Source: a bacterium | GTDB lineage: Bacteria; UBP18; UBA7526 | NCBI GenBank assembly: GCA_030619985.1 | Contig: JAUXAI010000070.1 | Coordinates: forward strand, 1 to 5,347 | Direction of reading: 5' to 3' | Length of the DNA stretch: 5,347 nt | In this document: positions 2 to 3,243 of the stretch, piece after piece | How positions within the stretch are numbered: the stretch's first letter is position 1 | Layout of the letters: every line of letters starts with the position of its first letter | Program-made: the position numbers and the translations under genes | The notes under the pieces: generated by a model | What the model was told of the DNA's origin: nothing | The model's input: only the letters and a program-made list of their open reading frames with translations | The model's database searches: none

Positions 2-463
2 TTTGTTCAATCTTTGGATAAGGCCAGGACTATTCTCTATCTGGGTGACAATGCGGGAGAGATTGTCTTTGATAAAATTTTGATTGAAGAGATTGATAAA
101 AGAGATCAAGGGCAAGAAGTTTACTATGCAGTGCGTGGAGCACCGATCATTAATGATGTTACCTTGAATGACGCCCAAGAAGTCTCTATGAGTGAAGTGG
201 CCCGAGTCATCTCCAACGGCTCTGATGTTCCGGGTACTATCCTGGATCTATGTTCCAAGGACTTCTTGAAAATCTATGGTAAAGCAGATATAATTATTGC
301 CAAGGGGCAGGGGAATTACGAATCATTGAGTGACGAAGAAGACGATAGAATCTATTTTCTCTTACAGGTGAAGTGTCCGGTCATCGCCCGCCATATCGGA
401 GTAAGGGTAGGGGGTGCGGTTCTTAAAGCATCAGGTAGAGCAGGTGAGAAAGTGAGAAAGTGA
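2..463 (+). CDS. DUF89/ARMT1-like metal-dependent phosphatase, C-terminal part (5' end outside window)
   Basis: The frame is open from the window edge, so the gene starts upstream; the TTG at 14 is only an internal Leu codon. About 153 residues are present, roughly the C-terminal half of a family member (usually near 280-300 residues). Hallmarks of the DUF89 (damage-control phosphatase, ARMT1-like) fold are clear: GDNAGEIVFDK at nt 44-76, whose Asp-Asn pair belongs to the metal/phosphate site, then VRGAPIINDVT, a NGSDVPGT loop, AKGQGNYESL near nt 299-328 and KCPVIA near nt 371-388. Family members are cytosolic metal-dependent phosphatases thought to remove phosphate from damaged or unwanted phosphometabolites; the substrate of the prokaryotic single-domain branch is not known. 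The last codons (GEKVRK) are encoded by an 8-bp tandem repeat, which also supplies the stop codon. The MBL gene follows after 12 nt in the same frame. Family assignment is strong, substrate unknown. Confidence 0.9.
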   Translation, partial: FVQSLDKARTILYLGDNAGEIVFDKILIEEIDKRDQGQEVYYAVRGAPIINDVTLNDAQEVSMSEVARVISNGSDVPGTILDLCSKDFLKIYGKADIIIAKGQGNYESLSDEEDDRIYFLLQVKCPVIARHIGVRVGGAVLKASGRAGEKVRK

Positions 464-480
464 GAAAGTGAGAAAGTGAG
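444..480. repeat. 8-bp tandem repeat GTGAGAAA, 4.6 perfect copies, across a gene junction
   Basis: Units lie at 444-451, 452-459, 460-467 and 468-475, plus GTGAG at 476-480, all identical. Because 8 is not a multiple of 3, successive copies are read in different frames. The DUF89 frame hits TGA at 461-463 in the third copy, and the GTG at 476-478 in the fifth partial copy is the start of the next gene. A diverged array of the same unit occurs at 2854-2901. Confidence 0.95.
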
Positions 481-1186
481 CACATTACTAAGAATAGTTT
501 ATGATAATCAATTACATCGAGAAGGATTGAAGACTGGTTGGGGCTTTTCCTGCCTCATTGACCATCAAGGGAAGAGGATACTCTTTGACACTGGTGGCGA
601 TGGCCAAGGACTTCTCTTTAACCTGAAGGCTTTAGAAGTAGAGCCGGAAAGTATTAATACCGTTGTTCTCTCCCACAATCACTGGGACCATACGGGAGGA
701 TTGGAGGCGATTATTGACAAGAACAAAGAAGTAACAGTCTATTTTGGAGAAGTTTTTCCGGAAAGCTTTAGAGAGAGTTTGAGGGAAAAAGGAATAAAGT
801 TTTCTCCAGTAGTTGGGATGGCTAATATCTCGGAGGGAATCCTGGTTGGTCCCCAGATGGGAGGATTGGGACCCAAAGAGATCCTCCTAACTATAGAAAC
901 GGATAAAGGTCTTGCCATCATTACTGGCTGTGCCCATCCTGGTATTGCAAGAATGGTAAAAGAAATTAAGGAAAGCTTGAAGAAGAGGGTCTATTTAGTC
1001 CTGGGCGGTTTCCATCTGGAATTTTCTCTGAGGGCGAATAGAGTAATTTCAGAGCTTAAGAGATTAGGGGTGGGAAAGGCTGGTCCCTGTCACTGTACCG
1101 GGAATAGAGCAATTGCTCTATTTGAGAAAGAGTTCAAGGAGAATTTTATCAGGGTAGGTGTCGGATTAGAGATGAGGATAGATTGA
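476..1186 (+). CDS. MBL-fold metallohydrolase, DHPS-like (MJ0301-type) group
   Basis: This 236-residue cytosolic protein has the metallo-beta-lactamase fold. The metal-binding HxHxDH motif is H67-N-H69-W-D71-H72 within LSHNHWDHTGGL. Further candidate ligands are H154 in TGCAHPGI, H180 in GGFHLEF and H206 in CHCTG. The N-terminus (IVYDNQ, then GLKTGWGFSCLI, then RILFDTGGDG at residues 34-43), the TGCAHPG block and the terminal HCTG are typical of the subgroup named after dihydropterin-ribofuranosyl-aminobenzene-phosphate synthase of methanogens. In bacteria its substrate is unknown, so a pterin role should not be assumed. The start is GTG 476, the first possible start after the upstream stop in this frame, and it places the family N-terminus correctly. 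It lies inside the 8-bp repeat, and no good Shine-Dalgarno sequence is visible, so reinitiation after the DUF89 stop is plausible. The 3' end overlaps the next gene by TTGA. Confidence 0.9.
   Translation: MSTLLRIVYDNQLHREGLKTGWGFSCLIDHQGKRILFDTGGDGQGLLFNLKALEVEPESINTVVLSHNHWDHTGGLEAIIDKNKEVTVYFGEVFPESFRESLREKGIKFSPVVGMANISEGILVGPQMGGLGPKEILLTIETDKGLAIITGCAHPGIARMVKEIKESLKKRVYLVLGGFHLEFSLRANRVISELKRLGVGKAGPCHCTGNRAIALFEKEFKENFIRVGVGLEMRID
1103..1122. repeat. Perfect 20-bp palindrome inside the MBL gene
   Basis: The sequence AATAGAGCAA followed by TTGCTCTATT is its own reverse complement over all 20 bases, with no spacer. It lies in the 3' part of the MBL gene, where it encodes NRAIALF, about 60 bp before the start of the NapH-like gene. 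Function is unknown; it could be a protein-binding site, an RNA hairpin or chance. Confidence 0.85.
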
Positions 1187-1665
1187 CAAAGTTGAGAAAG
1201 ATCAGTCAGGTTCTGGGAATTCTGGTCTTCATTCTTCTATTTGCTAAATTAAACATCCCCCATATATTCATTTTCTTTTTTGTTTTAACTCTATTATTCG
1301 GCCGGGTTTTCTGCGGTTGGTTATGCCCCATAGGCGCTCTTGAGGAGATTATTGGTAAGAAGACCTATGCTCGCAGGGGTTTACCTTTAAGAGCCGGCTG
1401 TAACATTGGCTGTCCCTTTATCTGGGTGTCGGCATGGTTAAACAGAGTAAGCCTGTTCAAGATAGAGATAAACAAAGAGAAGTGTACTAAATGCGGGATA
1501 TGTGATAAAATTTGTCCGACGAGTTTACCTTGGCAAAAGGCAAGCTGGAAAGAGGGAGACAATCCTTCTAACCGCTATGGTTGTATACGTTGTGGTACAT
1601 GCATTGCTAACTGTCCAGAGCAAGCCCTTTCCTATACTTTAAGGTGGAAGAAAGGTAAGCGATAG
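1183..1665 (+). CDS. Short NapH-like membrane protein with two 4Fe-4S ferredoxin clusters
   Basis: The protein has 160 residues. Residues 7-39 are very hydrophobic and can form a membrane hairpin (about 7-23 and 25-39). It is followed by GRVFCGWLCPIGALEE (40-55), the signature of the NapH/NosR/MauN-type family, with C44 and C48. A second CxxxC pair is C73/C77 in GCNIGCP. The C-terminal half carries two classical 4Fe-4S motifs, C101/C104/C107/C111 followed by Pro and C134/C137/C140/C144 followed by Pro. Family members pass electrons between membrane quinol or other donors and redox enzymes; the partner here is unknown. NapH proteins are usually well over 200 residues with four membrane segments, so this is a reduced form. 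The TTG start at 1183 is supported by GAGG at 1174-1177, the 4-nt overlap with the MBL stop, and the absence of any other Met in the protein. def follows after 11 nt. Confidence 0.85.
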   Translation: MTKLRKISQVLGILVFILLFAKLNIPHIFIFFFVLTLLFGRVFCGWLCPIGALEEIIGKKTYARRGLPLRAGCNIGCPFIWVSAWLNRVSLFKIEINKEKCTKCGICDKICPTSLPWQKASWKEGDNPSNRYGCIRCGTCIANCPEQALSYTLRWKKGKR

Positions 1666-2652: not shown

Positions 2653-2657
2653 ATGTG

Positions 2658-2840
2658 ATGGCTTATAAAATTACTGATGAATGTACCAAGTGTGGCGAAT
2701 GTGTTAAGAACTGCCCGGTAGAAGCAATCAAAGAAGGCGAAACTAAATTTTACATCACAGAGGAATGTGTGGAATGCGGACTCTGTGCTGATGTCTGTCC
2801 AGTAGGAGCGGTAGTGGAAGTGGGGGAAGGGGAGAAATAG
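2658..2840 (+). CDS. Small dicluster 2[4Fe-4S] ferredoxin
   Basis: This 60-residue soluble ferredoxin of clostridial type carries two 4Fe-4S motifs: C9/C12/C15/C19-Pro and C37/C40/C43/C47-Pro. In this fold the fourth cysteine of each motif serves the opposite cluster. The pseudo-twofold symmetry of the fold is visible: ITDECTKCGECVKNCPVEAI against ITEECVECGLCADVCPVGAV. The length is normal for the family, and the rest is acidic, as expected for a low-potential electron carrier. Its partner is not shown by the sequence; the NapH-like protein upstream and the MinD-ferredoxin ATPase downstream are candidates only. It is the last gene of the left block; downstream lies a 229-bp region of short tandem repeats. 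Confidence 0.95.
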   Translation: MAYKITDECTKCGECVKNCPVEAIKEGETKFYITEECVECGLCADVCPVGAVVEVGEGEK

Positions 2841-2853
2841 CGACACAGGGAAA

Positions 2854-2901
2854 CGGAGAAAGTGGGAAAGTGAGAAAGCGAGAAAGTGGGCAGGTGAGCA
2901 G
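2854..2901. repeat. Degenerate 8-bp tandem repeat, six units, same family as 444-480
   Basis: In phase, the units read CGGAGAAA, GTGGGAAA, GTGAGAAA, GCGAGAAA, GTGGGCAG and GTGAGCAG. The third is identical to the unit at 444-480, and the others differ at one to three positions. A further weak unit (CAGGGAAA) precedes them at 2846-2853. Confidence 0.85.
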
Positions 2902-2905
2902 TGAA

Positions 2906-2933
2906 GGACGAGGGATGGCGGACGAGGAACGAT
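2906..2933. repeat. Short 14-bp (2 x 7) direct repeat
   Basis: Two 14-bp units, GGACGAGGGATGGC and GGACGAGGAACGAT, match at 10 of 14 positions. Each can be split into 7-bp halves of the type GGANGNN or GAACGAT. With two copies only, this is the weakest of the four arrays. Confidence 0.6.
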
Positions 2934-2940
2934 TTAAGAG

Positions 2941-2990
2941 TAACCGATATTAACTGGTATTAACCGTTATTAACTGATATTAACTGGTAG
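2941..2990. repeat. 10-bp tandem repeat, five units
   Basis: Five consecutive decamers read TAACCGATAT, TAACTGGTAT, TAACCGTTAT, TAACTGATAT and TAACTGGTAG. The consensus is TAAC(C/T)G(A/G/T)TAT. Units two and five differ only in the last base. The 10-bp period is close to one helical turn, so every unit would face the same side of the DNA. Confidence 0.93.
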
Positions 2991-2998
2991 CAGGGATA

Positions 2999-3047
2999 GT
3001 TCATTGTCTATCGTTCAATGTTCATTGTTCAATGTTCATTGTTAAAT
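2999..3047. repeat. 7-bp tandem repeat GTTCA(A/T)T alternating as a 14-bp unit
   Basis: Seven consecutive heptamers read GTTCATT, GTCTATC, GTTCAAT, GTTCATT, GTTCAAT, GTTCATT and GTTAAAT. The alternation of AAT and ATT endings makes two perfect 14-bp units at 3013-3026 and 3027-3040. CAATG and CATTG halves inside the array are complementary and could form weak small hairpins. The array ends about 8 nt before the ribosome binding site of the DUF5320-like gene. Confidence 0.93.
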
Positions 3048-3054
3048 TTAAAGA

Positions 3055-3065
3055 GGGGAGGTGAT
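3055..3065 (+). promoter_or_regulatory. Strong Shine-Dalgarno for the DUF5320-like gene
   Basis: GGGGAGGTGAT is nearly the full complement of the 16S rRNA 3' end. Its GGAGG core ends 8 nt before ATG 3070. This favours ATG 3070 over the in-frame GTG 3061 (inside the site) and over the other-frame TTG 3065. Confidence 0.85.
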
Positions 3066-3069
3066 TGAA

Positions 3070-3243
3070 ATGCCATTGGGAGATGGAACGGGACCGGAAG
3101 GTCAAGGCCCAGGAACAGGAAGAGGACTGGGAAGAAGAGCCGGTAGACCCATGGGCGCTGGTGTTGGAACGCCACGCGGTGGTGCTGGTAGAGGTCGTCG
3201 TGGTGGTAGAGGAAAAGGAAGAATGCGAGGCGGCCGTCCTTGA
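3070..3243 (+). CDS. Small Gly/Arg-rich DUF5320-like protein
   Basis: This 57-residue protein begins MPLGDGTGPEGQGPGTGRGL, which closely follows the N-terminal signature of DUF5320 (typically MP-GDGTGP-G-GP-TGRG). From residue 21 on it is low complexity. In total 23 residues are Gly and 12 are Arg, with a single acidic residue after position 5 (E10). It has no Cys, no membrane segment and no signal peptide. DUF5320 proteins are often nearer 100 residues with a Cys after the signature and a C-terminal helical part; here the Cys position reads LGRR and the helical part is missing. DUF5320 genes are commonly found beside ferredoxin-containing MinD ATPases and NifX/NifB-like proteins in anaerobes, and such an ATPase lies 1 kb downstream. 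Molecular role is unknown; the strongly basic tail might bind nucleic acid, which is inference only. The strong Shine-Dalgarno argues for real and high expression. Confidence 0.75.
   Translation: MPLGDGTGPEGQGPGTGRGLGRRAGRPMGAGVGTPRGGAGRGRRGGRGKGRMRGGRP

Follow-up and report, generated by a model that had tools for sequence, protein, structure and literature searches.

Between a ferredoxin gene and a DUF5320-like gene, the bacterial contig studied here carries a chain of short tandem arrays with different unit lengths, which raises the question of whether the chain is a chance patchwork or a single unit. The initial annotation described it as four adjacent arrays of unrelated sequence that occupy nearly every base of the gap. 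The analyzed stretch (the window, 5,347 nucleotides) is the complete contig C52 of the MAG G000 (1.25 Mb in 91 contigs, about 84% complete). Our comparison of this gap with other loci indicates that it is probably a single copy of a modular, non-coding element which is dispersed through intergenic DNA and built mostly of short tandem arrays in a fixed grammar.

The gap and its arrays

Direct reading and TRF agreed on the presence of the 8-, 10- and 7/14-bp arrays (Table 1). The four blocks account for about 177 of the 229 bp of the gap (77%), which is most of the gap, although somewhat less than first claimed. The second block (approximately 2906-2933) has only two copies, GGACGAGGGATGGC and GGACGAGGAACGAT, with 10 of 14 positions identical by eye, and TRF at a score of 30 did not call it in the window. 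Although this module (D7) is weak on its own, its position and sequence are conserved in six other composite copies, including the orthologous kdsA-kdsD copy of G002, and we regard it as a real module because the ACGAGGGACGATT block keeps its position in other copies of the element.

Table 1. Features in and around the array-bearing gap (positions in the window)
Feature	Position	Strand	Description	Basis
2[4Fe-4S] ferredoxin gene	2655..2840	+	Upstream of the gap; stop codon at 2838-2840	Pfam
Module E8	2848..2898	+	8-bp array, unit GAGAAAGT (16- and 24-bp multiples also called); sense consensus AGAAAGTG/GGAAAGTG; upstream end of the element	Direct reading, TRF
Module D7	2906..2936	+	ACGAGGG/ACGAGGA heptamers, two imperfect 14-bp copies, leading into the joint ACGATTTAAGAGTAACC	
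Module T10	2937..2995	+	10-bp array TATTAACTGR with conserved joints AAGAGTAACCGATATTAAC ... AACTGGTAGCAGG; array proper at 2941-2989, unit TATTAACTGG (20-bp multiple also called)	Direct reading, TRF
Module C7	2999..3047	+	7/14-bp array, GTTCATT/GTTCAATGTTCATT; sense units GTTCAAT/GTTCATT; downstream end of the element	Direct reading, TRF
Shine-Dalgarno GGGGAGGTGAT and ATG of the DUF5320-like gene	3052..3072	+	Start best read as ATG 3070	Direct reading, G002 alignment
DUF5320-like gene	3070..3243	+	Downstream of the gap; small Gly/Arg-rich protein	Pfam (E 6.5e-5, under the curated cut-off)
Second E8 array	444..480	+	4.6 copies; contains the stop of the ARMT1-like gene (461-463) and the called GTG start (476) of a metallo-beta-lactamase-fold gene	TRF

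Rfam gave no match in the window above the gathering score, that is, no known RNA family, and no sigma-70 promoter or intrinsic terminator in the gap exceeded those in shuffled sequences. Inverted repeats were not found between positions 2820 and 3080, and the folding of the gap was weak (z of about -2). The closest named matches of the MinD-like protein encoded in the window came from Aerophobetes (about 62% identity).

Modules in fixed order at other loci

As the initial annotation had envisaged, the same units co-occur in other gaps in the same order. The order and strand of the modules were fixed at six non-orthologous gene pairs in four MAGs from two genera: ferredoxin/DUF5320 and kdsA/kdsD in G000, phosphatase-like/rpiB in G001 (copy G001:C30), minD-like/mrp in G002, and two copies in G004, which belongs to the other genus (G004:C72, and nadD-like/pilB-like in G004:C160). 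In each, the sequence runs from (AGAAAGTG)n through an optional (TTAGTTGGA)n, the ACGAGGGACGATT block, (TATTAACTGR)n and (GTTCAAT)n to the Shine-Dalgarno sequence and the start, and all six copies are oriented toward the downstream start. Not every copy has all modules: G001:C30 and G002:C1 have no C7, and the optional module (B9) is missing in the window copy and some others. The length of the element is roughly 120-230 bp.

The conservation is not confined to the repeats. The non-repetitive joints (for example, ACGATTTRARAGYAACCGATATTAAC) are 86-92% identical across 50-73 bp, and E8 is followed by C7 on one strand in all 7 sampled cases (two of the 7 are orthologous). The interior modules can differ between matching ends, as in kdsA-kdsD of G004, where the E8 and C7 ends enclose another interior, and the number of T10 units varies (about 2.5 in kdsA-kdsD of G002 versus about 4 in that of G000). 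The reading as a chance patchwork thus fails, since the modules recur in a fixed order, and what had been taken for a chain of unrelated arrays is one copy of an ordered composite.

With a 111-bp query from the gap, each of the six family genomes gave matches at other loci, strong ones in G000, G001, G002, G004 and G005 and weak ones in G003; at E <= 1, there were 12 hits in G000, 21 in G002 and 26 in G004. At E <= 1e-5, the core of the element was found neither in 187 genomes outside the family nor in G003.

T10 was found outside the composite too, in another type of element made of an inverted pair, whose order is always T10- then T10+ (24/24, some of them orthologous). Inverted pairs of GTTTACG (V7) run + then - in 29 cases and in the reverse order in one. 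The genome clearly also contains palindromic relatives, namely T10-/T10+, V7+/V7- and ACAAGGGTG/CACCCTTGT.

Occupied and empty sites

Occupied and empty versions of one site were found between kdsA and kdsD. In G001 and G003, which do not have the element, the two genes overlap, and KdsA ends in RIVRRRE or RIVRRVE across the KdsD start. In the occupied copies of G000 and G002, KdsA ends in RIVRK with its TGA inside E8; AAGGAGAGTAGGATG is intact after the element, as are the Shine-Dalgarno sequence AAGGAG and the ATG of KdsD. The minD-like/mrp junction is empty in G000 and occupied in G002, where AAGTAAGG flanks the insert on both sides. These empty sites point to insertion. A constant target-site duplication was sought among the occupied and empty pairs and none was found (the direct repeats were 8, 8, 6, 7 and 3 bp, or there were none), so that insertion, as against copy-in recombination, is only the tentative reading.

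The window site is not a clean pair of this type, because the ferredoxin gene was gained or lost together with the arrays. In G002, the ferredoxin gene and the four arrays are replaced by about 80 bp that include a 10-bp AATCTGTGAT array, and homology to the window starts again at 3057 in the alignment; in G001, the NUDIX and ferredoxin genes are both missing. The coincidence of the arrays with a boundary of two gene blocks, pointed out in the initial annotation, is supported to the extent that the flanking genes vary in G001 and G002, but other composites lie inside conserved operon junctions (kdsA-kdsD, minD-mrp). Elsewhere in the window (1184-1663), a Fer4_5-type ferredoxin gene is missing in G002, which has 10 bp in its place, so that the gene content of the cluster varies, like its gaps. 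The start region of the DUF5320-like gene (3057-3095) has a second match in G002 (G002:C33 L201:7634-7672, 90%), and this Gly/Arg-rich gene may therefore be multicopy.

Abundance and turnover of the arrays

The E8, T10 and C7 units were found 23, 14 and 13 times, respectively, in G000 within the allowed mismatches, versus 1, 0 and 4 times for reversed-pattern controls. Arrays with a period of 7-10 bp dominate and are mostly intergenic; arbitrary stretches of G000 (171 kb) contained 88 of them versus 2-5 in Markov shuffles, an excess of approximately 20-fold. The unit families are recurrent and common to two congeneric MAGs, and clustering of the units was far above that of random units for lengths of 8, 9 and 10 bp and moderately above it for 7 bp. 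Around 80 homologue loci, mostly from other lineages, 666 kb contained only 14 such arrays (two from a sister genome of the window), versus 167 in 385 kb here, that is, they are about twentyfold rarer there. These statistics come from sampled stretches totalling 385 kb in G000 and 582 kb in G002; half of the former were selected for holding hits, and the arbitrary half agrees.

We compared G000 with G002 over 160 kb of aligned DNA (90% identity). Among the G000 array gaps that did not align, the corresponding gap of G002 had an array of a different family in 18 cases, no TRF array in 11, nothing in 5 and the same family in 1. A further 20 non-coding arrays fall inside aligned DNA, and these are mostly identical or different by a whole number of units (such as 7, 8, 10 or 16 bp), as at 444-480 of the window, where the G002 version is two units shorter (2 x 8 bp), L055:8499 (7 bp), L054:16321 (16 bp) and L054:9467 (10 bp). 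Two processes are therefore discernible: entire elements are replaced, and units are gained or lost by slippage. The proposal that repeats are inserted or generated at this place was accordingly borne out, in that the unit set recurs in other gaps and the copies change by whole units at conserved loci.

Several other repeats were observed. An insert of about 100 bp with inverted 9-bp arrays (ACAAGGGTG ... CACCCCTGT) lies in a stop-ATG gap at L059:7953-8058, where G002 has 5 bp, and other copies of it are present in L054, L055, L073, L080, L086 and L088. Hairpin-like, MITE-like inserts at L072:3371-3496 and L087:3389-3531 are absent in G002 and are flanked by direct repeats of 8 bp (CAAATCTT) and 6 bp (TTGTAG), respectively; the latter insert directly follows the apparent 3' end of a tRNA gene. 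A GC-rich palindrome, CCGCCCCAGAGGGGCGAGACCTCGCCTTCGGCGGG, recurs in many gaps of G000 and G002 (for example, L076:1705-1859, L061:3303-3479 and L062/L237), and a tail, (T)CCGAGCGAAGCGAGG, recurs immediately ahead of starts in gaps of both genomes; the two look like further dispersed elements. A 10-bp array in a contig from the distant phylum Poribacteria (L189, DTYX01000784.1), CACGGATACA, resembles a unit family of G000; common repeat words may be shared more widely.

Orientation and stop codons

In codirectional gaps, the ratio of sense to antisense arrays was 34:3 for E8, 37:10 for U10 and 16:2 for C7, and the K7 and L8 arrays were biased to antisense (all counts use crude longest-ORF gene calls). 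Since nearly all gaps in G000 are codirectional (378/418), the context alone tells little. The sense strand of E8 has TGA in all three frames, whereas its antisense strand has zero stops. The stop of the upstream gene lies within the array in 15 of the 34 sense copies, and 21 of 845 sampled gene ends fall in a sense E8 array, versus none in an antisense one. From these stop-rich sense copies we infer that selection for closure of the upstream frame accounts for part of the sense bias. C7 carries ATG in all three frames, and its sense copies have a median distance of 26.5 nt to the downstream start. An RNA hairpin as a common function was also considered and is not supported (median z of -1.93 in array gaps versus -1.66 in gaps without the probed arrays).

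Possible mechanism and alternative explanations

New copies of the element would be placed at operon junctions beside a Shine-Dalgarno sequence, either inserted or copied in by recombination. Those that last would mostly have the orientation that leaves the downstream start unharmed and lets E8 supply a stop to the upstream gene, whatever its frame. The unit numbers would subsequently drift through replication slippage, and the end arrays may act as homology for the exchange of the interiors. The element is most likely selfish or nearly neutral, like BOX or MITE-like repeats, and whatever it may do to mRNA processing or translation would be secondary. The full scenario, a mobile element of tandem arrays which inserts at a Shine-Dalgarno or operon junction, closes the upstream frame with E8, swaps its interior through the end arrays and spreads by a mechanism other than the transposase families searched for, is possible, though not probable. 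Neither Y1_Tnp (positive in the control genomes) nor DDE_Tnp_1 was found in the five genomes searched, which are MAGs of 75-93% completeness, and RVT_1 was not found in G000. On these grounds, mobilization of the REPIN/RAYT and IS200/605 types, a DDE_Tnp_1-driven MITE and a reverse-transcriptase origin are not supported.

If each array had instead grown in place from a chance seed, the four would stand side by side by accident. Slippage is plainly at work in these genomes, as the whole-unit indels between the sister genomes show, and the excess of 7-10-bp periods over shuffles agrees with such a hotspot; however, independent slippage does not explain why unrelated loci agree in units, joints, order and strand, nor does it account for unit clustering far above random for 8-10 bp, the fixed polarity of the inverted pairs of T10 and V7, or the empty sites, and we consider it very unlikely. 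As a full account it is refuted by the ordered copies, and it holds for the change of copy number only. The idea of a hotspot stands insofar as slippage or insertion acts here, but the gap is not special in this respect, as many gaps of G000 carry such elements. An artefact of assembly or binning might be suspected from a small contig of a short-read MAG with this many contigs; yet independent MAGs carry the composite, with G000 and G002 sharing it at an orthologous locus, and many arrays match base for base across MAGs, which makes an artefact hardly conceivable. The element might also have recombined into this place with the ferredoxin gene, as a passenger that marks the junction of a gene gain. 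The absence of both the ferredoxin gene and the arrays from G002 is consistent with this, but kdsA-kdsD and minD-mrp gained or lost the element without any gene and most gap differences between the compared genomes involve no gene, so that we find this explanation unlikely.

A cis-regulatory role, in which the arrays would be repeated mRNA binding sites that set downstream translation or decay, as proposed for the TAACTGA repeats of Beggiatoaceae, appears rather doubtful to us. The common direction of all six full-order copies toward the downstream start and the sense excess of E8, U10 and C7 are in its favor, as is the inclusion of TAACTGA in T10, since this motif lies mostly forward just upstream of Maribeggiatoa start codons (PMC4679880). 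However, the orthologous gaps of the sister species often carry other families or nothing, kdsA-kdsD of G001 and G003 lacks the element, and the flanking genes have no apparent common function. The weak fold of the window gap, with array gaps hardly more structured than others, also argues against regulation, and the stop codons of E8 offer a simpler reason for the sense bias. The reading as a dispersed modular element turns an oddity into a testable system, namely a lineage with array-built elements throughout its intergenic DNA, where sister species about 90% identical in aligned DNA have replaced them at shared gaps. With ordered arrays, empty sites and whole-unit changes all present in one set of genomes, insertion can be told apart from slippage and from module exchange, which addresses a long-standing uncertainty about STRR and heptamer repeats. 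If the targeting of operon junctions is true, the element would be a natural means of uncoupling overlapping genes, with neither one broken.

Comparison with known repeats

STRR are heptanucleotide repeats of heterocystous cyanobacteria, which are intergenic and dispersed through the genome. The arrays described here resemble STRR and long SSR as dispersed intergenic arrays of 7-bp units; 8-, 9- and 10-bp units are also abundant here, and the arrays are ordered, whereas to our knowledge fixed chains of different unit lengths are not known for STRR. The host lineage is also different, and the link to cyanobacterial STRR drawn in the initial annotation is a likeness of form, an analogy only.

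TAACTGA direct repeats have been described from marine Beggiatoaceae, Cyanobacteria and Bacteroidetes (MacGregor 2015, PMC4679880). Like T10, which contains TAACTGA, they form short tandem arrays between genes, usually forward and ahead of a start; in the window, the motif sits within the 10-bp period, 80-130 nt upstream of the DUF5320-like start. Unlike those repeats, T10 has a period of 10 (TATTAACTGA) and is one ordered module or half of an inverted pair, and many further unit families are present in the same genome. MITEs, REPINs, ERIC and Correia elements are small, non-coding, dispersed intergenic repeats that can alter the 3' ends of genes and mRNA (PMC3049150; PMC10969869). The present elements are likewise small, non-coding, dispersed and intergenic, and G000 also has hairpin members. 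However, the window copy differs from a MITE in having neither terminal inverted repeats nor a constant target duplication, and the Y1 (RAYT) transposase of the REPIN/RAYT system was found in none of the five genomes.

The BOX element of Streptococcus pneumoniae has the structure boxA-boxBn-boxC, with modules of tens of bases, a predicted stem-loop and a proposed link to the insertion sequence ISSpn2 (PMC3049150). Like BOX, the present element is a short modular intergenic repeat with a fixed order and variable tandem inner modules, is dispersed among unrelated genes, varies in copy number between strains or genomes and lacks a transposase of its own; unlike in BOX, the modules are arrays of 7-10-bp units, and no matching insertion sequence was found. 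It may thus be called BOX-like in form, a resemblance of form only, with no relationship of sequence to be expected. In the literature searched, which mostly excluded subscription journals, no account of several unlike short arrays chained in a set order was found. Dispersed modular intergenic repeats are a known kind of element, and the ordered form built from arrays is a variant of it.
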